A stretch of 48,964 bases of DNA from the NCBI GenBank assembly GCA_030019475.1, contig JASEER010000017.1, positions 1 through 48,964 on the forward strand. The letters run 5' to 3'. The position numbers were made by a program, and so were the translations under genes. Below are positions 5,295-29,076 of this stretch, piece after piece (the stretch's first letter is position 1; each line of letters opens with the position of its first letter). The notes below the pieces were generated by a model. The model searched no databases. It saw nothing but the letters and a program-made list of their open reading frames with translations, and was not told where the DNA came from. Source of the DNA: Thermoanaerobacterales bacterium (GTDB lineage: Bacteria; Bacillota; Desulfotomaculia; Desulfotomaculales; JASEER01).

Positions 5295-5336
5295 AAGCAG
5301 CACACCGCGGACTTCCAGCGGGTGGCTGCTTTTTTG
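5295..5336 (+). terminator. Rho-independent terminator between acsV and the WL operon
   Basis: Arm AAGCAGC-A-CACC (5295-5306) pairs with GGTGGCTGCTT (5321-5331), with one bulged A, and is followed by a run of T. It lies 170 bases after acsV, inside the 298-base gap 5123-5420. The rest of that gap is GC-rich with no gene recognised. A TATAAT hexamer at 5373-5378, downstream of the hairpin, could be the -10 of the WL operon, but no convincing -35 is present. An attenuator role is also possible. Confidence 0.6.
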
Positions 5337-5420
5337 TTGCCCGGGGCGGGCGAATCTAATTACCATATCTCCTATAATTCACGCCTTTTGGTGAACCGCC
5401 TGAGTGAAGGGGGAGAGAAT

Positions 5421-5906
5421 TTGGTCACAGAGTGCGGTACCACGCTGCTAGAGAGGACTCGCGGCATCGTGGCTCCCTATGCGGGGCGGGAAGGCATGCT
5501 TGTCCACGCCCTGCAGGATGTCCAGGGAGTCTTCGGCTACTTGCCCGAGGATGCCTTGCGGGTGCTGGCGGAGGAACTGGGCGTATCGTTGTCCCACATC
5601 TGGGGGGTTGCCTCCTTCTATGACCGTTTTCATTTTATACGCCGGGGGCGGAATACCGTGCGGGTATGCACCGGAACGGCATGCCAGGTCCAGGGGAGCC
5701 GGAACGTTCTGCAGCAGGTGGAGAAACTGCTGGGCCTCAGGAACGGTGAGACGAGTCCGGATTTCAGCTTCACTCTGGAAACGGTCAATTGCGTCGGCTG
5801 CTGCGGGCTGGCTCCGGTCGTTACGGTGAACAACGAGGTCGTCCCGGCGCCAGAAATGGAACGCGTGCTTGCCGACCTGCGAAAGGGGAACGGCGGCAAT
5901 GACTAG
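5421..5906 (+). CDS. NuoE-like [2Fe-2S] thioredoxin-fold subunit
   Basis: The 161-aa protein matches the NuoE / HydC / HytE1 family, the small [2Fe-2S] partner of NADH-oxidising flavoproteins. It has the helical N-terminal part (LQDVQGVFGYLPEDALRVLAEELG) and the thioredoxin-like [2Fe-2S] fold with CTGTACQVQG and, about 35 residues later, CVGCCGLAPVV. These provide the four cluster cysteines. I chose TTG 5421 because AGGGGGAGAG stands directly upstream and the length then fits the family; an in-frame GTG at 5391 and an ATG at 5322 would add unrelated residues. The stop overlaps the next gene by 8 bases, which implies translational coupling. It passes electrons between the NuoF-like flavoprotein and the NuoG-like subunit. 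Confidence 0.9.
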   Translation: MVTECGTTLLERTRGIVAPYAGREGMLVHALQDVQGVFGYLPEDALRVLAEELGVSLSHIWGVASFYDRFHFIRRGRNTVRVCTGTACQVQGSRNVLQQVEKLLGLRNGETSPDFSFTLETVNCVGCCGLAPVVTVNNEVVPAPEMERVLADLRKGNGGND

Positions 5907-7809
5907 ACTGGCGAGTGCGGCGGACCTGGCCGCGCTGCGGGAACGCCTGGCGGCGCAATACGCGTCCGGCGAACCCGTGGTCAGGGTTTGCACCGGCTCG
6001 GCCTGCCGGGCCGCCGGCTCATTACGGGTGGCCGACGCGGTGACCGAGGAGCTTCGCCGCGCCGGAATTCAGGTGAGTGTCCGGCGAACCGGCTGCCAGG
6101 GGTTCTGCCAGCACGGCCCGTTGGTGATGGTCGATCCGGAGGGCTGGCTTTACGGAGGGGTTACGCCCTCCGACGCGGCAAAACTGGTGGATTTGACGGT
6201 ACGACGCAGACAACTGATCGAACACCTTGCCTGCCGGCACCCGGAGACCGGGCGACCGATCGGTTCAACCTCCGAACTGCCGTTTTATCAGCGACAAACC
6301 CGCCTGGTGTTGCGGCACTGCGGGTTGATCGACCCGACCTCCATCGAGGACTACATCGCGGCGGGCGGCTATCGCGCCCTGGCCAGGGTGCTGGAGACGA
6401 TGTCACCGGAGGCGGTGATCAGCCTCATCAAGCGTGCGGGGCTGCGCGGACGTGGCGGCGCCGGCTTTCCCACCGGCCGGAAGTGGGAGGCCGGGCGGGC
6501 GGCCACCGGGACGCGGAAGTTCGTCATCTGTAATGCCGACGAGGGCGACCCCGGAGCGTTCATGGACCGCAGCCTGCTGGAAGGGGATCCTCACGCCGTC
6601 CTGGAGGGGATGATCATCTGCGCGTACGCCATCGGTGACTGCCGGGAGGGTTTCGTGTACGTGCGCGAGGAATACCCCCTGGCCCTCGAGCACGTGCGCA
6701 TCGCCATCGAAAAGGCCCGCGAGTTCGGGCTGCTCGGCAAGAATATCCTGGGCAGCGGCCTTGACTTCGATATCGAAATCCGGCGCGGGGCCGGCGCTTT
6801 CGTCTGCGGCGAATCGACGGCACTCATGTTTTCCATTGAAGGAAAACGGGGTATGCCCCGCGTCACCCCGCCTCGTTCGGTGGAAGCCGGGTTGTGGGGC
6901 TGCCCCACCTGCCTGAATAACGTCGAAACCTTCGCCAACGTCCCCTTGATCCTGAACCGCGGCGCCGATTGGTACGCGGGTATCGGTACCGAGGGTTCGA
7001 AGGGCACCAAGGTTTTCGCCCTTTCCGGCAAGGTCAAGTACACCGGGTTGATCGAGGTGCCCATGGGAGCGACCGTCCGGCAGGTGGTCTTCGACATCGG
7101 GGGCGGTATCGAGCAGGGGAAGCGCTTTAAGGCGGCGCAGATCGGGGGACCCGGTGGAGGGTGCATCGCCGAGGAACACCTTGACCTGCCCATTGACTTC
7201 GAGTCGCTCAAGGGTGTCGGATCCGCCATGGGATCCGGGGCGCTGGTGGTCGTGGACGAGACCACCTGCATGGTGGATCTGGCCCGCTATTTTCTCTCCT
7301 TTACGCAACAGGAATCCTGCGGCAAATGTCCGCCCTGTCGTATCGGGACCTATCAGATGCTTAGGATCCTGAACCGGATCGTTGAGGGAAAGGGAGAGGA
7401 AGCCGATCTCCGGAAACTGGACGATCTCGGTCGTCTGATCAGCAGGACGTCGCTCTGCGGACTCGGCAAGTCTGCGCCCGGACCGGTACTCTCGACGCTT
7501 CGTTTCTTCCGGGAAGAGTACCTGGCCCACATCCTTGAGCGACGCTGCCCGGCGGGGAGCTGCGAGACATTGAAGCGTTTGACGATCGGACCCGAATGTG
7601 TGCAATGCGGTCTCTGTGAGGAAACGTGTCCACAGCATGCCATTATGGAAACGGAGAACGGCCTCGCCATCGACCTGCTTCTCTGTGTGAACTGCGGGGC
7701 GTGTGTGTCCGTATGCCCGATGGAATGCATCGCGGAGGCAACCGGGGAGGGTGGAGCCAATGACGGCACCGGCGACGAAGGAACCGGCCCTGATCACTCT
7801 TACCATTGA
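5899..7809 (+). CDS. NuoF-like NADH-binding FMN/iron-sulfur subunit
   Basis: This 636-aa flavoprotein has three parts. The N-terminus is a thioredoxin-like [2Fe-2S] domain (CTGSACRAAG and GCQGFCQHG). Next is the NuoF core, with the NADH site GRGGAGFPTGRKWE, FMN site CNADEGDPGAFMDR, an SLBB region and the N3-type cluster motif ESCGKCPPCRIGT. The C-terminus is a two-[4Fe-4S] ferredoxin domain (CVQCGLCEETCP and CVNCGACVSVCP). This is the layout of HydB/HytB/HylB subunits of NAD-linked hydrogenases and formate dehydrogenases, including electron-bifurcating ones. Start at ATG 5899, behind AAAGGGG and overlapping the nuoE-like stop. The next gene starts inside its 3' end. It is expected to oxidise or reduce NAD(H) for the complex encoded here. 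Confidence 0.93.
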   Translation: MTRLASAADLAALRERLAAQYASGEPVVRVCTGSACRAAGSLRVADAVTEELRRAGIQVSVRRTGCQGFCQHGPLVMVDPEGWLYGGVTPSDAAKLVDLTVRRRQLIEHLACRHPETGRPIGSTSELPFYQRQTRLVLRHCGLIDPTSIEDYIAAGGYRALARVLETMSPEAVISLIKRAGLRGRGGAGFPTGRKWEAGRAATGTRKFVICNADEGDPGAFMDRSLLEGDPHAVLEGMIICAYAIGDCREGFVYVREEYPLALEHVRIAIEKAREFGLLGKNILGSGLDFDIEIRRGAGAFVCGESTALMFSIEGKRGMPRVTPPRSVEAGLWGCPTCLNNVETFANVPLILNRGADWYAGIGTEGSKGTKVFALSGKVKYTGLIEVPMGATVRQVVFDIGGGIEQGKRFKAAQIGGPGGGCIAEEHLDLPIDFESLKGVGSAMGSGALVVVDETTCMVDLARYFLSFTQQESCGKCPPCRIGTYQMLRILNRIVEGKGEEADLRKLDDLGRLISRTSLCGLGKSAPGPVLSTLRFFREEYLAHILERRCPAGSCETLKRLTIGPECVQCGLCEETCPQHAIMETENGLAIDLLLCVNCGACVSVCPMECIAEATGEGGANDGTGDEGTGPDHSYH

Positions 7810-10231
7810 CGGGCGGCAAGCGGCGGCGGCCCCGGGTACCACGGTCATCGAGGCCGCGGCCGCCCTGGGCATCGATATTCCCCATCTCTGTTATTGTCCG
7901 GAACTCCCGAGCACCGGGTCGTGCCGCCTCTGCCTGGTCGAGATCGAAGGAGTCCGCGGACTGGTGGTGGCCTGCAAGCGCGAGGTGGCCCCGGGAATGG
8001 TCGTGCGCACGAACAGCGCCGAGATCCGGGATGCGCGCCGTTTTGTGGTGGAGCTGTTCCTGTCGCGGCATCCCCGGGGGTGTCTGACCTGTGAGGCGAG
8101 CGGCCGCTGCCTCCTCCAGCGGTATGCTTACGAACTGGGAGCGCAACACGATCGCTTCCCGTATGAGGATCCCGGGTTTGCGGTTGACGATGCCAATCCG
8201 TTCATCATACGCGATCCGAACCTCTGCGTCCTCTGCGGTCGCTGTATCCGGATCTGCAAACTTCAGGGCGCCGGCATTCTCGACTTCATTTACCGGGGCC
8301 TGGACACGAAGGTGGGGACGCCCTGGGACCGGCCGTTGCTGCAGTCCGGCTGCGACTTCTGCGGGAGTTGCGTCGGGGTCTGTCCCACGGGAGCCTTAAC
8401 GGAAAAGCCGGGGCGCGGGCGGGGCCGGGAATGGGAACTCCGCAAGGCTCCTTCGGTCTGCAACCTTTGCGGCGCCGCCTGTGCCGTGGACCTGCACCTC
8501 AAGGACAACACTGTGGTGCGAGCGAGCTCCCCCCGGCCGACAGGTTTCCTTTGCGGCCGCGGCCGGTTCGGATGGACACGCTTCAGCCACCCCGAACGGC
8601 TGACGGCGCCCATGGTGAGAAAGGGCGGCGTCCTGGAACCCGTCGAGTGGGAGGAGGCCCTGGAGGCCGCGGCGCGGGGGCTGCAAACGGTGTGGCGGAA
8701 GTGGGGTTCCGGTGCCGTCGGGGGAGTTCTCGGCACCGACGTTTCAAGAGAAACCGGGCACGGCTTTCTTGAGGTCATGCGGGGCGGGTTGCAGACGGAT
8801 CGCATCTACAGCACCCTGAGCTTCGGAGGGCTGGACGTGCTGTGTGATCTGCAGGCCGTGAGCGGCGGCAGGTATGCCGCTTTGGCGGATGTGGCCGCCG
8901 CCGATGTGCTTCTGGTCATCGGCGACGCCGTCCGGCGGGCGCCCGCTCTCTGGGCCTCGATCAACCGGGCGCTGGGGCGCGGCGCAAAGCTGATTTATGT
9001 GGGCCCCTACCGCGGCCGGCTGGCCCGGGCCGCGGGGGTGTGGTTGCGTCCCCGTCCCGGAATGACTGCCGTGGTCCTGCAAAGGATGGCGGCGGCGCTG
9101 TTGAGAGAGGACGGGAAGGCCCGGCTGCCCGGCCGGAGACTCGACAACTTCGCAGACTTCCTGGCCACGCTCGACACGGTCCCGGAGGGGGACCCGGGCA
9201 GCGGGGTCAGTGACGTGGACGTCAGCGCCGCCGCCGGCCTCTTCGGAGATCCGGCAGCGAGGGCGGTAACGGTCTTCGCCGTGGACGGCGTGGACCGCAG
9301 TACGGCCCGGGCGGCCGTCAACCTGGCCCTGTTCACGGGGAGAGGGGAACGCGGCCTTCACCCCGTCGCCGCTGTCGCCAATGCTTACGGACTCATAGGC
9401 ACGGTCCCGAGGGGCGGGACGGGCCGGGACGCCACCCCCGGCGCCGAGAATATCCTGTCGGCCATGGAGCGCCACCGTGCCTGGTACGTGCTGGCCGAGG
9501 ATCCCGTCTCCTCGTTCCCGGACCCGGAGCGGGTCCGTCATGCAATGGAGAAGGCCGATTTCCTCGTGGTTCAGGACATGTTCCTGACACCGACGGCCGC
9601 CATGGCCGATGTCGTATTGCCCGCCTCCGGGATCCCGGAGGAGAACGGAAGTATCACGGACGTTACGGGTAATCCTGTTCGATTCAGGCAGGCGGTAACT
9701 GCCCCTGCGGAGATAACGAACCTGCAAATCCTGATGGAAATCGCCTCCCGCCTGGAGCCGCGGCCGGCCGGCGGGGATGAGCGGCGCCCGCCGGGAAAGG
9801 AATCGCCGTTGGCGTCCTCTCCGCCGAAAGCAATGTTTCTGCCGGTGGGGATCGACGGCGCCGCCGGCGAGGACTCGTCCGGGTTATGGCTCGTCGGCTG
9901 GGCGTCCCGAACCGGTCCTCTCTTTCACCCCCGGTTGCGGTTGCAGGACTTCACCGTACTCGAGCCCTACGGCGGCGATTACGTCTCCCTGGCGCCCGAG
10001 GACGGCGCGGCCCTGGGCTTGGAGGAAGGAACGGAGGTTATGGTCCGGTCGCCCTCCGGACGCGCCGGCACCAGGGTGAAACTGGACGAGGGATTGGAGC
10101 GGGGGGTCGTCCTGGTCTCTCCGGACACACCCCTGGCCCGGGCCGTCATGGGCGACAGATGGCCCCTGGGGCCGACACCGATCCGGTTGACCCCGGCGAA
10201 TGGATCGCAAGGAAGGGATGGAGACCGATGA
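7760..10231 (+). CDS. NuoG-like iron-sulfur/molybdopterin-fold subunit, no catalytic Cys/Sec seen
   Basis: The 823-aa protein begins with a [2Fe-2S] domain (CYCPELPSTGSCRLC) and the His/Cys [4Fe-4S] motif (HPRGCLTCEASGRC). Two further [4Fe-4S] motifs follow (CVLCGRCIRIC and CDFCGSCVGVCP). It then has a molybdopterin-oxidoreductase fold opening with its own cluster (CNLCGAAC...CGRG), and a C-terminal dinucleotide-binding domain (GGDYVSLAPEDGAALGL). Unlike true formate dehydrogenases, the region that should carry catalytic Cys or Sec (around DRIYSTLSFGG) has neither, and there is no [FeFe]-hydrogenase motif. It therefore looks like an electron-transfer NuoG-type scaffold, not an enzyme on formate or H2. 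Start at ATG 7760. The stop overlaps the acsA start as ATGA, so a structural partnership with CODH is plausible but inferred. Confidence 0.85.
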   Translation: MTAPATKEPALITLTIDGRQAAAAPGTTVIEAAAALGIDIPHLCYCPELPSTGSCRLCLVEIEGVRGLVVACKREVAPGMVVRTNSAEIRDARRFVVELFLSRHPRGCLTCEASGRCLLQRYAYELGAQHDRFPYEDPGFAVDDANPFIIRDPNLCVLCGRCIRICKLQGAGILDFIYRGLDTKVGTPWDRPLLQSGCDFCGSCVGVCPTGALTEKPGRGRGREWELRKAPSVCNLCGAACAVDLHLKDNTVVRASSPRPTGFLCGRGRFGWTRFSHPERLTAPMVRKGGVLEPVEWEEALEAAARGLQTVWRKWGSGAVGGVLGTDVSRETGHGFLEVMRGGLQTDRIYSTLSFGGLDVLCDLQAVSGGRYAALADVAAADVLLVIGDAVRRAPALWASINRALGRGAKLIYVGPYRGRLARAAGVWLRPRPGMTAVVLQRMAAALLREDGKARLPGRRLDNFADFLATLDTVPEGDPGSGVSDVDVSAAAGLFGDPAARAVTVFAVDGVDRSTARAAVNLALFTGRGERGLHPVAAVANAYGLIGTVPRGGTGRDATPGAENILSAMERHRAWYVLAEDPVSSFPDPERVRHAMEKADFLVVQDMFLTPTAAMADVVLPASGIPEENGSITDVTGNPVRFRQAVTAPAEITNLQILMEIASRLEPRPAGGDERRPPGKESPLASSPPKAMFLPVGIDGAAGEDSSGLWLVGWASRTGPLFHPRLRLQDFTVLEPYGGDYVSLAPEDGAALGLEEGTEVMVRSPSGRAGTRVKLDEGLERGVVLVSPDTPLARAVMGDRWPLGPTPIRLTPANGSQGRDGDR

Positions 10232-23133: not shown

Positions 23134-23209
23134 GAAAACCTCACGCCCGGAACACCGCTTTTGAATCACGACAACAAGACTATGGCTGAACGGGGTGGGG
23201 CCGGTGATA

Positions 23210-23980
23210 ATGAAGGCGTTGATTGTGGATGACGAATACCCGGCGCGTACGGAATTGCGCCACCTGTTGTCACAATGCGACTGCATGAAAGTGATCGGCG
23301 AAGCCACGAACACCGATGATGCCTGGCAATTGATCAACGCCGTCGACTACGATGTCATTTTTCTTGATATCAAGCTGCCGGGCACCAGCGGTATAGAGTT
23401 GGCGTCCAGATTGAAGTCGATGACCAAGGCCCCGCGACTGGTCTTCGTCACGGCTTTCGAGGACCACGCCGTCAAGGCGTTCGCTCTGGGAGCTTTCGAC
23501 TATCTTCTGAAACCGGTGAGCGATGAACGGCTGCGTGAGACCATCGCCCGGTTGCGCAAGACACTGTGCGAGGAAGCACCCCCACCGAAATGGCTGACGG
23601 GTGAGAGGAACGGCATCGCCGTACCGGTGGCGGTGAAGGATATTGTCTATGCCTTCGCCGCCAACAATTCCACTTTTGTGCGCACGTATGCCGATCAGGT
23701 GCGGATCAGATGCACCATGGAACAGCTCTGTGAACGCCTGCCGAACGATGTTTTCTTCCGTTCCCATCGCGCGTACCTGGTCAACGTTAACAAGATCAAA
23801 GAGATCTGGCCCGACGTTAACGGTGCCTACACCCTGGTCATGAATGACGCGGATCACAGTACGGTTACGGTGAGCCGGGGACGCGTGGAGGACCTCAAAA
23901 GGCGCTTGGGATTGCAGGGGCGCCTTCGTCTGAGAGGTGGCGCCTGTGCCCGTAAAAAACGGCCGAGGGAGGGGGTGTAG
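23210..23980 (+). CDS. LytTR-family response regulator
   Basis: The 256-aa protein has a receiver domain (VDDEYPAR with acidic pocket, FLDIKLPG with the likely phospho-Asp, and YLLKPV with the conserved Lys). A LytTR DNA-binding domain follows (AVKDIVYAFAANNSTFV...FFRSHRAYLVNVNKI). It ends in a basic tail. LytTR regulators bind pairs of short direct repeats upstream of target promoters. No histidine kinase lies nearby. The gene follows fhs by 76 bases and precedes iron-sulfur and CooC genes, so it may control CODH or electron-transfer genes; RcoM, a CO sensor, also uses a LytTR domain but with a PAS domain, which is absent here. ATG 23210 has GGGG 9 bases upstream; GTG 23195 or 23204 are alternatives. 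Confidence 0.88.
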   Translation: MKALIVDDEYPARTELRHLLSQCDCMKVIGEATNTDDAWQLINAVDYDVIFLDIKLPGTSGIELASRLKSMTKAPRLVFVTAFEDHAVKAFALGAFDYLLKPVSDERLRETIARLRKTLCEEAPPPKWLTGERNGIAVPVAVKDIVYAFAANNSTFVRTYADQVRIRCTMEQLCERLPNDVFFRSHRAYLVNVNKIKEIWPDVNGAYTLVMNDADHSTVTVSRGRVEDLKRRLGLQGRLRLRGGACARKKRPREGV

Positions 23981-23984
23981 CACG

Positions 23985-24560
23985 ATGGATACCGTCTGCC
24001 GGGTGACGGAGAGCGAAGAGCGGTTGCTGGCGTTCGCCTCGGGCCGAACGTGTGGTTCCGGTAAGCATGTGCGGTCCTGGTGCATCCCCTGCACCGTCGC
24101 CTTGAAGCAGGCTGCGGCCGCCATCGGCCGTATCCGCAGCGGGCATGCCGGAGCATCCGACGAGGTGTGCCTCCGGGAGTGCTGCCGGCGGTTGCCGTCC
24201 GTCATTCGCTGCAAGTTCGGCCGGACGGCCTGGACGGAGTTGGGGAGATTGCTTGAAGGTCACGGGGATCCCCTGGAGGAGCATGTAACGAAAAAGCAGT
24301 GTGCCGCCGGTGTCTGTCCCGGTCTGGTTTCCCACCGGATAGATCCGGAAAGGTGCGTAATGTGTGATCAATGCCGGGAAGCCTGTCCGGAAAAGGCGAT
24401 CGTGGGACGACGTTACGTGGCGTACCGGACTGATAACCAGCCTTACAGAATCGTCACCCATCGTTGCACCAACTGCGAACAATGCATCCCGGCGTGCCCG
24501 GAAAACGCGATCGTGACCGTTTCAGGAGAACATGGCGGGGAGGTGCCGGTATGGTCCTGA
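23985..24560 (+). CDS. Stand-alone NuoF-like iron-sulfur module fused to a 2[4Fe-4S] ferredoxin
   Basis: The 191-aa product resembles only the C-terminal third of a NuoF/HydB subunit. Its N-terminal part (CGSGKHVRSWCIPCTVAL, then LRECCRRL and CAAGVC) parallels the N3-cluster helical domain and linker of NuoF. Two ferredoxin motifs follow (CVMCDQCREACPEKAI and CTNCEQCIPACPENAI). The flavin- and NADH-binding parts are missing. ATG 23985 lies 4 bases after the LytTR stop, behind GGGAGGGGG, and the 3' end overlaps the YbjQ-like gene. It may be an electron carrier or adaptor for a flavoprotein complex, or for CooC-dependent maturation. Function is not known to me. Confidence 0.7.
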   Translation: MDTVCRVTESEERLLAFASGRTCGSGKHVRSWCIPCTVALKQAAAAIGRIRSGHAGASDEVCLRECCRRLPSVIRCKFGRTAWTELGRLLEGHGDPLEEHVTKKQCAAGVCPGLVSHRIDPERCVMCDQCREACPEKAIVGRRYVAYRTDNQPYRIVTHRCTNCEQCIPACPENAIVTVSGEHGGEVPVWS

Positions 24561-24919: not shown

Positions 24920-25750
24920 ATGAAGATCGCCGTCTGTGGCAAGGGTGGCGTCGGTAAAACAACGTTGACCGCGGCCCTGGTCTGGCTCGTAGCCGGCCGG
25001 GGCACCGTGGTTTACGCCATCGATGCCGATCCGGACGCCAATTTGGGCCTCGCCATCGGTATCCCCGAGGATGATCTGGCGACGATCCGATCTCTGGCCG
25101 ACTTGGAAAAGGTGATCAAATCCTGCACCGGCGCCGGCGGAGGCCTTTTCACCCTCAATCCGAAGGTGGACGACATTCTCGATACCCTGTGCTATCATCT
25201 GGGACGGGTTCGCTTTCTCCGCATGGGTAATGTCAAGCGGGGTGGAACGGGGTGCTACTGTCGCGAGTACGCGTTCTTGAACGCCGTTGTCACGAGTCTG
25301 CTCCTGGACAAGACCGATGCGGTGATCCTCGATATGGCCGCCGGCATCGAGCATTTGACACGCGGGGCCTCCCGCGGGATGGATGCGCTGTTGGTGGTCG
25401 TGGAACCGACACGGGCGGCGGTGGACACGGCGCGCAACCTTGCCGCGCTGGCCGCGGACCTCGCCATCCCCCGCGTCTTCTTTGTGGGCAACAAGAGCAC
25501 CGGGATCGCCGACGACGATTTCCTCCGCCAGACGCTGGATGTGGCCCCTCTGATCGGGAATATCCCGCTTGATCCAGGCGTTTTATACCGGTCGGACACA
25601 GCGGGTGCCCGTAGGGGCAATACCCCGGCGGGAGCGGAAGATGTCCTGCGTGTCCTGCTGGATCATTTGCAGTGGCCGGCCGGGCCGGTGACAGGCGCGT
25701 GCGGGAGTCCCGCCAGGCTTACCAGGTCAAGGGACAAGGCCGCGCGGTGA
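24920..25750 (+). CDS. Second CooC-type ATPase
   Basis: A 276-aa MinD/CooC-like ATPase with Walker A GKGGVGKTTL, switch motif AIDADPDANLGLAIG, GNVKRGGTGCYCREYAFL with the C-x-C metal motif, and VILDMAAGIEHLTRGASRGMD. These are hallmarks of CooC nickel-insertion proteins. It is closer to the classical CooC pattern than the copy at 16.8 kb. No CODH gene sits beside it, so it may serve AcsA or a CODH elsewhere. GAAGAGGTG precedes ATG 24920. Its last 88 bases overlap, tail to tail, the minus-strand ferredoxin gene at 25663-26127. Confidence 0.88.
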   Translation: MKIAVCGKGGVGKTTLTAALVWLVAGRGTVVYAIDADPDANLGLAIGIPEDDLATIRSLADLEKVIKSCTGAGGGLFTLNPKVDDILDTLCYHLGRVRFLRMGNVKRGGTGCYCREYAFLNAVVTSLLLDKTDAVILDMAAGIEHLTRGASRGMDALLVVVEPTRAAVDTARNLAALAADLAIPRVFFVGNKSTGIADDDFLRQTLDVAPLIGNIPLDPGVLYRSDTAGARRGNTPAGAEDVLRVLLDHLQWPAGPVTGACGSPARLTRSRDKAAR

Positions 25751-26127
25751 CGCCGGCAGGCGACGCACAACCCCAGGAAACCATCCGGGACGAGGGTGGA
25801 GAGATGCTCGATTTGGGGGGCCGCAGCATAGGGAACACCGCACGATGAGCACCGGCGGAGGGAGAAGGCTGCTCTTATCACTGCTTTAGGCGGTGACGGC
25901 GGTTGTTCCGCTCCGGGCATGAAGGTGATTGCCCCGGTGAGGCAGTACCTGGCGCACCGCCCGCAGCCCATACACACCTCCGGAAGAAAGCGCCAGATGA
26001 TACTGGCGGCCATGGGCGCCGTGCTTATCACCAGGGCCCCCGTCCGGCACGCCGCAGCACAGGCGCCGCATGCCACGCAGAGATCCCTCCGGTAGACCGG
26101 GAAAGGCTGGATTTTCGCCACCGCCAT
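25663..26127 (-). CDS. Ferredoxin-like subunit with C-terminal zinc-ribbon-like motif, FDH operon
   Basis: The 154-aa protein carries two [4Fe-4S] motifs (CVACGACAAACRTGAL and CMGCGRCARYCLTGAI). A C-terminal segment has paired cysteines, CSSCGVPYAAAPQIEHL and later CVACRR, like the zinc-ribbon tail of HycF/HyfH-type subunits. It is the third gene of the minus-strand formate dehydrogenase operon and probably links FdhA/FdhB to another redox partner. AGGAGA lies right against ATG 26127; the in-frame GTG two codons later has better spacing and may be used. The 3' end overlaps the second cooC on the other strand by 88 bases. Confidence 0.8.
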   Translation of the reverse strand: MAVAKIQPFPVYRRDLCVACGACAAACRTGALVISTAPMAASIIWRFLPEVCMGCGRCARYCLTGAITFMPGAEQPPSPPKAVIRAAFSLRRCSSCGVPYAAAPQIEHLSTLVPDGFLGLCVACRRHRAALSLDLVSLAGLPHAPVTGPAGHCK

Positions 26128-26148: not shown

Positions 26149-26724
26149 TTATGGATAGATACGCTGGACATCGACGGCGGCAGCGCCGAAATGCGCCTTC
26201 CGCCGTTCCACCGCCAAAAGGTGAACGTCCCCGGCATCGAGAAGCACCAGGGCCTTGGTGGGACACGCCCTGATACAGGCCGGACCGTCGGGCCGGAAGT
26301 AACAGAGGTCGCATTTCACGGCGACCTTTCGCACCTTTTTCTCGTCCTGCTCACCGGCCGGCGCGGGGAGAGGGATGGACGTCGCCAGTCCGACGGCGGA
26401 GGGAGACATTTGACGCCCGACCTGAATCTCAATACAGCCGATGGGGCAGGCCAGGGCGCAAATACCGCAGCCCACGCACTTTTTCTCGTTGAGGACAACG
26501 GCCTGAGCCTGCGGTTCGATCGCGCCGACCGGGCAGACCCGTGCGCAGGGCGCCTCGTCACAATGACGGCAAGGTAAGGGAACGCTGCCCTGCGGGAGCG
26601 GCGTAAGGAACAGACGCGGTACCGGCGTCACGCCCTCCTCTTTGTGCGCGAGGGCGCAGGCCGCCAGGCAGGTGTAGCAGCCGAGGCACCGGGCCGGATC
26701 AGGGACGACCAGTCTCCTGGGCAT
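26149..26724 (-). CDS. Four-cluster ferredoxin subunit of formate dehydrogenase (HycB/FdhB-like)
   Basis: The 191-aa protein has four cysteine groups typical of HycB/FdnH-like electron-transfer subunits: CLGCYTCLAACALAH, CRHCDEAPCARVCP, CVGCGICALACPIGC and CDLCYFRPDGPACIRACP. There is no C-terminal membrane anchor, so it should be soluble. Its ATG lies 26 bases inside the end of fdhA, implying coupled translation. In acetogens such subunits link FDH to hydrogenase (as in the hydrogen-dependent CO2 reductase) or to ferredoxin. No hydrogenase gene is seen nearby. Confidence 0.88.
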   Translation of the reverse strand: MPRRLVVPDPARCLGCYTCLAACALAHKEEGVTPVPRLFLTPLPQGSVPLPCRHCDEAPCARVCPVGAIEPQAQAVVLNEKKCVGCGICALACPIGCIEIQVGRQMSPSAVGLATSIPLPAPAGEQDEKKVRKVAVKCDLCYFRPDGPACIRACPTKALVLLDAGDVHLLAVERRKAHFGAAAVDVQRIYP

Positions 26725-28888
26725 CGGCCCCGTCTCCTTTCTTGCGAGTCTGGCGGTTCACCGGAGGCTCCAGGTCGGTGCGGTACTGTTCCTTTTTCCG
26801 GCGGCGGATGGCCCGCGCCTCGACCGAGGAAATCTTTTCCATCCTCGCCGCGCACGCCTTGGCCTCGATCACTCCGGAAACCGGGTCGCGGGCCCGCCCG
26901 GTCAGCTCATTGGCGCATGCTTCCCAAAAATGAAAGGTCATAAAAACGGTCCCGGGCGGCACCCGTTCGGTGACCCAGGCGCGCGCCGCCAAGGACGCGC
27001 GCCGGGTGGAGACACGGACCAGACCGCCGTCGGTGACGCCGATCCGGCCGGCGTCCCGCGGGTTGATTTCGACGAGTTCCTCGGGCCCCATCTGGTTCAG
27101 CACCCACTCCTTGCGGGTCATCGTTCCGGTGTGGTAATGGTAAACCCGCCGGCCCGTGGTGAGCACCAGAGGGTAGTCGTCGTCGGGCTTTTCGACCACG
27201 CCGCCGGGCGATGACGCCTGATGGGGAACCGGATGGAGCAGGGCCTTCCCCGACGGGGTCGGAAACACGCCGCCCTCGTAAAGCACGGGGGTGCCGGGAT
27301 GGCTCTCGTCCGGACACGGCCAGATGAGACCCGACGGACTGTCCAATCGCCGGTAGGAGATGCCGCCGAACTTCTCCGGCACCAGGCGGCGGACCTCGTC
27401 CCAGATCTCCCCGGCGGACCGGTACGAAAAAGGGGCGCAGCCCATCTTCTCCGCCAGGGCGGTGAAGATCCGCCAGTCCGGCCTGGCCTCCCCCGGTGGA
27501 GGAACGGCGGCCCGCACACGCTGGACCCGGCGTTCCGTGTTGGTGAAGGTCCCATCCTTTTCGGCGGCGCCGGCGGCCGGGAGGACCACCGTGGCCAGCC
27601 GGGCCGTTTCCGTAAGAAAGATGTCCTGCACCACAAGCAGTTCCAACCGCGCGAGGGCTTCGCGAAAGCGGCCGGCATCCGGTTCGCTCAGCACCGGGTT
27701 TTCCCCGAAAATGTACAGAGCCGTGATTTCTCCACGCAGGATGGCGTCGTCTGTTTCCGTCGCTCTCAGGCCGCGGCCGGCCGGAGGCTCCACGCCCCAC
27801 AGCCGCCGGCAGCGATGTCGCGCCGAGGGGTCGGAAACGCTGAAATATCCCGGCAGAACATCCGGCAGGCAGCCCATGTCACACGCTCCCTGGACGTTAT
27901 TCTGGCCGCGCAAAGGAAAGAGCCCGGCTCCGGGCCGGCCGATCTGCCCCGTGATGACCGCCAGGTCGGCCAGGGCCATTACGCTGTCCGTGCCGTGCAC
28001 GAATTGGGTGACGCCCATACCGTACAGTATCGCCGCCGTGGCGGCGGTCCCGTAGGCGTGGGCCGCCGCTTCCAGGTCCGCGGCGGGAACGCCGGTCAGC
28101 TCCTCCACGCGGGACGGGGTCCACGGGGACAGCCCCGCCGCAAGCGCTTCAAAGCCGCCGGCCCGGCTGCCGACCCAGGAGGCGTCGACCAGGCCGTCGC
28201 GGATGATCACGTGCATCATGCCGTTGATCACGGGAAGATTCCGTCCCACCGGCACGCGCAGCCAGATATCGGCCCGCGCGGCCATCTCGGTACGCCGGGG
28301 ATCGGCGACGATCAGCCTCGCTCCCCGTCCCCGCGCCTTGAGAACCTGCCGGGCCGCCAGGGGGTGGCATTCCGCTGTGTTTGAGCCGATGATAAAGATG
28401 GCTTCGGTTAATGAACCGATTTCCGGAAGCGAATTGGTCATCGCTCCACTGCCCAGGCTCCTCGCCAGACCGGCGATGGTCGGGGCGTGTCACAAACGGG
28501 CGCAGTGATCCACGTTGTTGGTGCCGATCACCGTCCGGGCGAATTTCTGGGCGACGTAGTTATCTTCATTGGTGGCCCTCGCCGACGCGATGAGAGCGAA
28601 AGCATCCGGGTTGTGCCGGCGCAGGAGGTCCAGTTTCGCGCCGACGTACTCCAGGGCCTCCGCCCAGCCCACCGGAGTGAGCCTCCCTTCTTTTCGGATG
28701 AGAGGCGTTTGCAGCCTGCGGGGGTCGTGCACGTGCCGGTGACCGAAGGAGCCCTTCAGACAGAGTTCGCCTTCGCTCACCGGGTGCGCGGGGTCCCCCT
28801 CGGCCCCCGTAATCCGCCCTTCCTTCACCAGCAGATAAAGGCCGCAGCCCACGCCGCAGTACGGACATACCGTAAGCACCCGTTCCAT
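26699..28888 (-). CDS. fdhA: Formate dehydrogenase catalytic subunit, selenoprotein (in-frame UGA)
   Basis: This molybdo/tungsto-enzyme interconverts formate and CO2. The reading frame is broken only by a TGA at complement 28490-28492, at residue 133. Read as selenocysteine, it gives NVDHCARL-U-HAPTIAGLA, the canonical FdhF active-site sequence (E. coli Sec140). The full protein is 729 aa. It has an N-terminal [4Fe-4S] motif (CPYCGVGC...GELCLKG), the bis-MGD domain (IIGSNTAECHPL, FPLRGQNNVQGACDMG), and a C-terminal dinucleotide-binding domain (TGRRVYHYHTGTMTRK, INPRDAGRIGV). ATG 28888 follows GGAGGGG. A ZTP-type riboswitch stands in the leader. Selenocysteine machinery must be encoded outside the window. 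Confidence 0.93.
28455..28492 (-). promoter_or_regulatory. Bacterial SECIS element in fdhA
   Basis: Immediately after the UGA (complement 28490-28492) the RNA can fold a hairpin whose tip is CGCC-GGUCU-GGCG (complement 28463-28475). The apical GGUCU begins 18 nt after the UGA, the same distance I recall for the E. coli fdhF SECIS bound by SelB. The lower stem is less regular. This supports Sec insertion over a sequencing error or nonsense mutation. Confidence 0.8.
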
Positions 28889-28916: not shown

Positions 28917-29025
28917 AATAAAAGCAACGCCTGGCACAGGTGACTGCTTCCTGCCCAGGCGGACGGCTTTCCACCGCAGTGTTCCCCGGTGGTTATGCCC
29001 ACCCTTTGCCGCCAGTAACACTGCG
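28917..29025 (-). promoter_or_regulatory. ZTP (pfl-type) riboswitch with terminator, fdhA leader
   Basis: The leader RNA matches the ZTP/pfl aptamer. P1 is a perfect 9-bp stem (complement 29017-29025 with 28975-28983). ACUGGCGGCAAAGG follows P1 and a GGUGG/CCACC hairpin (complement 28999-29003 with 28988-28992) leads into CGGGGAA. The hallmark CCGCCUGGGCA is at complement 28952-28962. GGCGG (complement 29009-29013) can form the known pseudoknot with CCGCC (complement 28958-28962). The CGCCUGGGCAGG arm then pairs with CCUGUGCCAGGCG (complement 28928-28940), followed by UUGCUUUUAUU, which is a terminator that competes with the aptamer 3' part. ZTP binding should permit fdhA expression when 10-formyl-THF is low. 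Confidence 0.85.
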
Positions 29026-29046
29026 TGTTCTTTGAACTTTGGCCGT

Positions 29047-29076
29047 ATTCTATCGGGGATCGGGCGGCGGCGGCAA
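29047..29076 (-). promoter_or_regulatory. Promoter of the fdhA operon
   Basis: On the minus strand, TTGCCG (complement 29071-29076) and TAGAAT (complement 29047-29052) are 18 bases apart. Transcription would begin near 29040, about 15 bases before the riboswitch P1 stem, which is where an aptamer leader would be expected to start. Consensus match is moderate. Confidence 0.5.

Follow-up and report, generated by a model that had tools for sequence, protein, structure and literature searches.

A ZTP/ZMP-class riboswitch precedes a selenocysteine formate dehydrogenase operon beside Wood-Ljungdahl genes in a Thermoanaerobacterales bacterium

The ZTP riboswitch class has an ON architecture, described earlier, in which the terminator overlaps the aptamer (PMC2864571; PMC7337938). 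The nearest relatives of the leader reported here are those that precede pflB, in the same taxonomic class (e.g. L009-L015) and in other Bacillota, which share with it the aptamer class and a terminator built on the P3 arm. By analogy the enzyme under control here would likewise be one that makes formate, but the target is a selenocysteine formate dehydrogenase (FDH) rather than pyruvate formate-lyase (PFL), in a host without PFL. FDH is not among the genes listed by Weinberg 2010 (PMC2864571), and our literature search, whose scope stopped short of the gene associations of Kim et al. 2015, found no link between a ZTP riboswitch and a formate dehydrogenase; an earlier mention is possible.

On the enzyme side, the closest described system is the hydrogen-dependent CO2 reductase (HDCR) of Thermoanaerobacter kivui (PDB 7qv7), whose FdhF is 61% identical over its full length to the one studied here and whose HycB3 matches the product of the next gene; unlike HDCR, the ZTP-linked operon is without hydA2, has a HycF-like and not a HycB4 third gene, adjoins acs/fhs genes, and carries a ZTP leader. 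Hyf-type formate hydrogenlyase (FHL) operons have a same-clade FdhF and a HycB-like protein, as here, but they also have membrane hydrogenase genes and are without a ZTP aptamer. Since the ZTP-linked operon contains no hydrogenase gene, we file it neither as HDCR nor as FHL.

The locus lies in a 48,964-nucleotide stretch of genomic DNA (contig JASEER010000017.1), here called the window, and its features are as follows.

29047..29076, minus strand: promoter-like site TTGCCG-18-TAGAAT, 9/12 consensus matches (a consensus match only)
28946..29029, minus strand: ZMP/ZTP riboswitch aptamer (RF01750), 61.6 bits, E 1.1e-7
29025-29017 / 28983-28975, minus strand: P1, 9 bp, CGCAGUGUU / AACACUGCG
29009..29013, minus strand: pseudoknot 5' arm GGCGG (J1/2)
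29003-28988, minus strand: GGUGG-GCAUAA-CCACC hairpin
28967-28952, minus strand: P3 element carrying the conserved CCGCCUGGGCA
28958..28962, minus strand: pseudoknot 3' arm CCGCC, also part of the terminator
28928..28961, minus strand: predicted intrinsic terminator hairpin overlapping P3 and the pseudoknot 3' arm, CGCCUGGGCAGG/CCUGUGCCAGGCG
28917..28927, minus strand: U-rich tail UUGCUUUUAUU
26699..28888, minus strand: fdhA/fdhF, selenocysteine formate dehydrogenase alpha (TIGR01591, 761 bits, one TGA read through)
28490..28492, minus strand: UGA codon 133 (Sec), in frame; a bSECIS-like hairpin (loop GGUCU) lies 3' of it
26149..26724, minus strand: 4Fe-4S electron-transfer subunit, HDCR HycB3 homologue (7qv7_A, E 7.8e-55)
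25663..26127, minus strand: another 4Fe-4S protein, a relative of subunit 6 (HycF) of formate hydrogenlyase (7z0s_F, E 4.3e-11)

An Rfam scan of the whole window assigns the aptamer to RF01750 (ZMP-ZTP) with a score above the gathering value of 39 bits (the E value is computed over the whole window and 4227 families), and the match covers model positions 1-86 of 86 with the conserved positions kept. P1, P2, P3 and a pseudoknot from J1/2 to the P3 loop are all present, and within the class two-sided changes occur at all seven consensus P1 pairs. The original prediction, made from the letters alone, had named a ZTP aptamer with a 9-bp P1, a GGUGG/CCACC hairpin, a GGCGG/CCGCC pseudoknot and the hallmark CCGCCUGGGCA; the covariance model agrees, every element lies where it had been placed, and the proposed span of 28917-29025 runs exactly from the start of P1 to the end of the tail. 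The aptamer stands in the leader of a one-carbon gene, a formate dehydrogenase adjoining the fhs/acs cluster, and is the sole RF01750 site over the cut-off in the 2.28-Mb genome; the acs/fhs operon was predicted to lack a ZTP leader, and the whole-genome search found none there. Two further matches, the next best genome-wide at 27 and 20.6 bits, were rejected because both fall within coding sequence. Judged by these features, the fdhF leader is a canonical ZTP/ZMP riboswitch by class and is predicted to bind the ligand; the sensor itself is ordinary, and it is the controlled gene that is unusual.

The expression platform is coupled to the aptamer through the P3/pseudoknot arm that the two have in common. 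The hairpin at 28961-28928 (12 pairs, one bulge, -19.6 kcal/mol) begins within the pseudoknot 3' arm, and aptamer and terminator are therefore mutually exclusive, an overlap that predicts a transcriptional ON switch. A terminator reusing the last aptamer arm and ending in a U-rich tail had been foreseen and is found, though the tail UUGCUUUUAUU is interrupted, which is its weak point; a generic terminator scan passed over the hairpin, whose loop of more than 8 nt is beyond the limit of that scan. In each of the three fdhF leaders (the window, G049 and G050) the P3/pseudoknot arm doubles as the 5' arm of the terminator, and such a hairpin is present in 73/96 surveyed ZTP leaders. The promoter-like site, for which shuffles of the region give a mean of 0.1, ends 18 nt upstream of the aptamer, and its position predicts a terminated leader of ~120 nt; a promoter scan of G050 gave no site over threshold.

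The operon that follows comprises three genes, fdhF (Sec), a hycB3-like gene that overlaps it by 26 nt, and a hycF-like gene, with a GGAGGGG ribosome site 5' of the fdhF ATG at 28888. We read fdhF as a selenoprotein gene, as originally proposed, because its in-frame UGA, at the active-site Cys/Sec position, aligns with Cys in the two nearest orthologues (G049 and G050), the codon is followed by a bSECIS-like hairpin whose loop reads GGUCU, and a tRNA-Sec gene (78.6 bits) is present in the genome. The genome encodes two more Sec FDHs, both without a riboswitch, and the one under ZTP control may therefore provide a dedicated supply or one for times of stress.

The best PDB chain for the window FdhF is 7qv7_S, the T. 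kivui HDCR FdhF, at 1022 bits, the next FDH scoring 674. In the FdhF tree the window sequence groups with those of G049 and G050 (support 100/100), and this group is sister to the HDCR FdhF plus seven other FdhFs, the whole forming a clade of 11 (support 100/100) that also includes FHL-type FdhFs, which makes clade membership non-discriminating. The seven, from other genomes and 59-61% identical, were first taken as HDCR loci, a reading we dropped; a scan of neighbouring genes, made for L268, L269 and L271, showed these three to be Hyf-type formate hydrogenlyase operons. At our locus a HycB3-like subunit adjoins fdhF, as in HDCR, and the third gene matches FHL subunit 6 rather than HycB4. An [FeFe] hydrogenase catalytic domain (HydA2) is absent from the window and from L022/L023; one hydrogenase-domain match in the window was rejected, since it corresponds to the Fe-S region at the N terminus of a NuoG-like gene product, and several [FeFe] hydrogenases are encoded on other contigs of the genome. 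Because HydA2 is not encoded at the locus, any HDCR here would be incomplete and the reaction direction is not deducible from the complex. No Hyc/Hyf membrane or hydrogenase subunits occur among the surrounding genes.

An association between aptamer and fdhF is evident within the class. The aptamer occurs in 14/113 genomes of the class, ahead of pflB in seven, purH in three and fdhF in three (the window, G049 and G050), with no clear target in G052; an FdhF orthologue (at least 67% identity) is found in 3/113 class genomes, all three with the aptamer, while ~125 other FDH places in the class (41-52% identity) have none. The aptamer-fdhF pairing is not chance. The 80 FdhA loci of GTDB closest to this one were scanned with a ZTP model built in this analysis, which at E<0.01 recovers 85/87 known sites drawn from the whole phylum; the aptamer occurs at one of them, that of G050, and the related FdhF loci at 59-61% identity have none. 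The G052 aptamer (L020, on G052:C14) is weaker, at 44.3 bits, and has a terminator and no pfl downstream; its next long ORF, ~490 nt downstream, looks by eye like a ModA-type molybdate-binding protein.

The genomic setting goes beyond the original prediction. On its plus strand the window carries a Wood-Ljungdahl set (AcsV, CODH, FolD, ACS, corrinoid proteins, a methyltransferase, a MetF-like protein and Fhs), and the fdhF unit is inverted and located beyond cooC. In G049 and G050 the order on one strand is fhs, response regulator, small Fe-S ORF, ZTP-fdhF-hycB3-hycF, cooC and acsV; these two genomes thus share the ZTP-fdhF arrangement, with the unit placed within the acs/fhs cluster. Lying beside or within that cluster, the switch would act on a formate source next to formate-using enzymes. 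Two further parts of the cluster deserve mention. The LytR/BtsR-type response regulator and the ferredoxin-like small ORF without a family match that follow fhs (window 23195-24560) are kept in G049 and G050 and may represent a second regulator of the cluster. NuoF/NuoG-like genes are located between acsV and the gene for CODH (window 5322-10231) and could form an NADH-linked electron module that serves CODH or the MetF-like protein.

PFL was not found in any of the three ZTP-fdhF genomes (G000, G049 and G050) and is present in two tested relatives with ZTP-pflB. Since the aptamer precedes pflB in the PFL-bearing relatives, we take the switch to mark the formate source, and because the FdhF is nearest a CO2 reductase as well, the switch most likely raises formate supply at low formyl-folate. 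PurH, which consumes ZMP, is encoded in all three genomes.

We therefore consider it probable that the leader is a ZTP/ZMP transcriptional ON switch of the three-gene fdhF operon, and that CO2 reduction by the enzyme supplies Fhs with formate. When 10-formyl-THF is short, PurH would stall and ZMP/ZTP would rise; bound ligand would keep P3 and the pseudoknot joined, so that no terminator forms and the operon is read through, whereas without ligand the terminator would capture the P3 3' arm and transcription would end after ~120 nt. FdhF would then reduce CO2 to formate for Fhs of the nearby acs/fhs cluster, and the Fhs product would restore 10-formyl-THF for purines and feed the Wood-Ljungdahl methyl branch, FDH filling in this lineage the place that PFL has in other ZTP regulons. 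That ZTP would raise FDH and thus formate for Fhs was the physiological core of the original prediction; it gains comparative support from the closeness of this FdhF to that of a CO2 reductase, the missing PFL and the pflB aptamers. Ligand binding, read-through and the CO2-reducing direction in vivo are inferred.

It is unlikely, in our judgment, that a working riboswitch controls an enzyme whose main reaction is formate oxidation, with formate as a respiratory donor or in a formate hydrogenlyase, the folate link being one of formate recycling and not making. Same-clade FdhFs in Hyf-type formate hydrogenlyase operons of other genomes, able to run either way, count in its favour, as do the resemblance of the third subunit to FHL subunit 6 and the [FeFe] hydrogenases elsewhere in the genome. 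However, the locus is without Hyf genes, the relatives' operon lies inside the acs/fhs cluster, and PFL, the usual formate source under a ZTP switch, is absent. Burning formate through an ON switch would moreover aggravate a 10-formyl-THF shortage; ON logic and CO2 reduction would fit together, and formate oxidation under the same control would be self-defeating.

A switch that turns a Mo/W enzyme gene OFF and so spares pterin for folate is highly improbable. FDH does require molybdopterin, and tandem ZTP aptamers on moeA are reported to form an OFF system, for which this economy was proposed (PMC9481103), but a single aptamer overlapping a terminator is an ON layout, and the genome's other FDHs, with the same cofactor need, have no aptamer.

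Signs of drift are seen in the two Desulforudis-like relatives, where the switch may be weakening: both aptamers have a broken pseudoknot pair (CCCCC for CCGCC), that of G050 (L016) having lost this one pair to a C-C mismatch, and that of G049 (L021), which at 34.8 bits falls under the gathering score, having lost more. All three ZTP-fdhF genomes are multi-contig drafts, and the broken pair together with a Cys enzyme could reflect switch drift or draft-genome error. These weaker copies are what would suggest that the leader came along with the fdhF module and is now a relic in decay, its regulation lost, which is highly improbable for the window copy: it retains the conserved positions, the 9-bp P1 and a strong terminator, and its P1 differs from the relatives' P1 through paired changes.

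The rarity of the ZTP-fdhF pairing is apparent from a wider survey. At 101 Bacillota ZTP sites, the gene that comes first downstream is PflB-like at 38 sites, PurH at 25, Fhs at 7, FdhF at 3 (the window, G049 and G050 being the only FDH cases), FolD at 1 and other at 27. These assignments come from BLAST against five references, so the 'other' set is mixed and some of the 'PflB-like' genes may code for different glycyl radical enzymes; beyond the phylum, coverage was of sites near the 80 FdhA loci. Eleven ZTP aptamers (L115, L121, L127, L136, L140, L161, L163, L172, L177, L186 and L192) stand ahead of a gene for an MFS transporter from the oxalate/formate antiporter family, and the one tested matched L-lactate MFS transporter SfMCT by name; because this pairing recurs, the transporter may carry formate or a related acid. 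In large-genome Bacillota, six more (L150, L165, L173, L180, L182 and L184) precede what look like uncharacterised proteins of the TIGR01440 family, L150 being the one examined by profile.

Together, these results widen the ZTP regulon beyond pyruvate formate-lyase, adding a formate dehydrogenase of the CO2-reductase type, and support a simple rule for these bacteria, in which the switch is placed on the formate-producing enzyme, whichever that may be. More tentatively, and as a possibility we would not yet call probable, PFL-less CO2-fixing Bacillota may have recruited the ZTP alarmone to control how the methyl branch of the Wood-Ljungdahl pathway begins, at its first step, gauging 10-formyl-THF for carbon fixation beyond purine synthesis. 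If the ligand response proves true, a folate-stress alarmone would be tied directly to the step by which carbon enters an ancient pathway of CO2 fixation.
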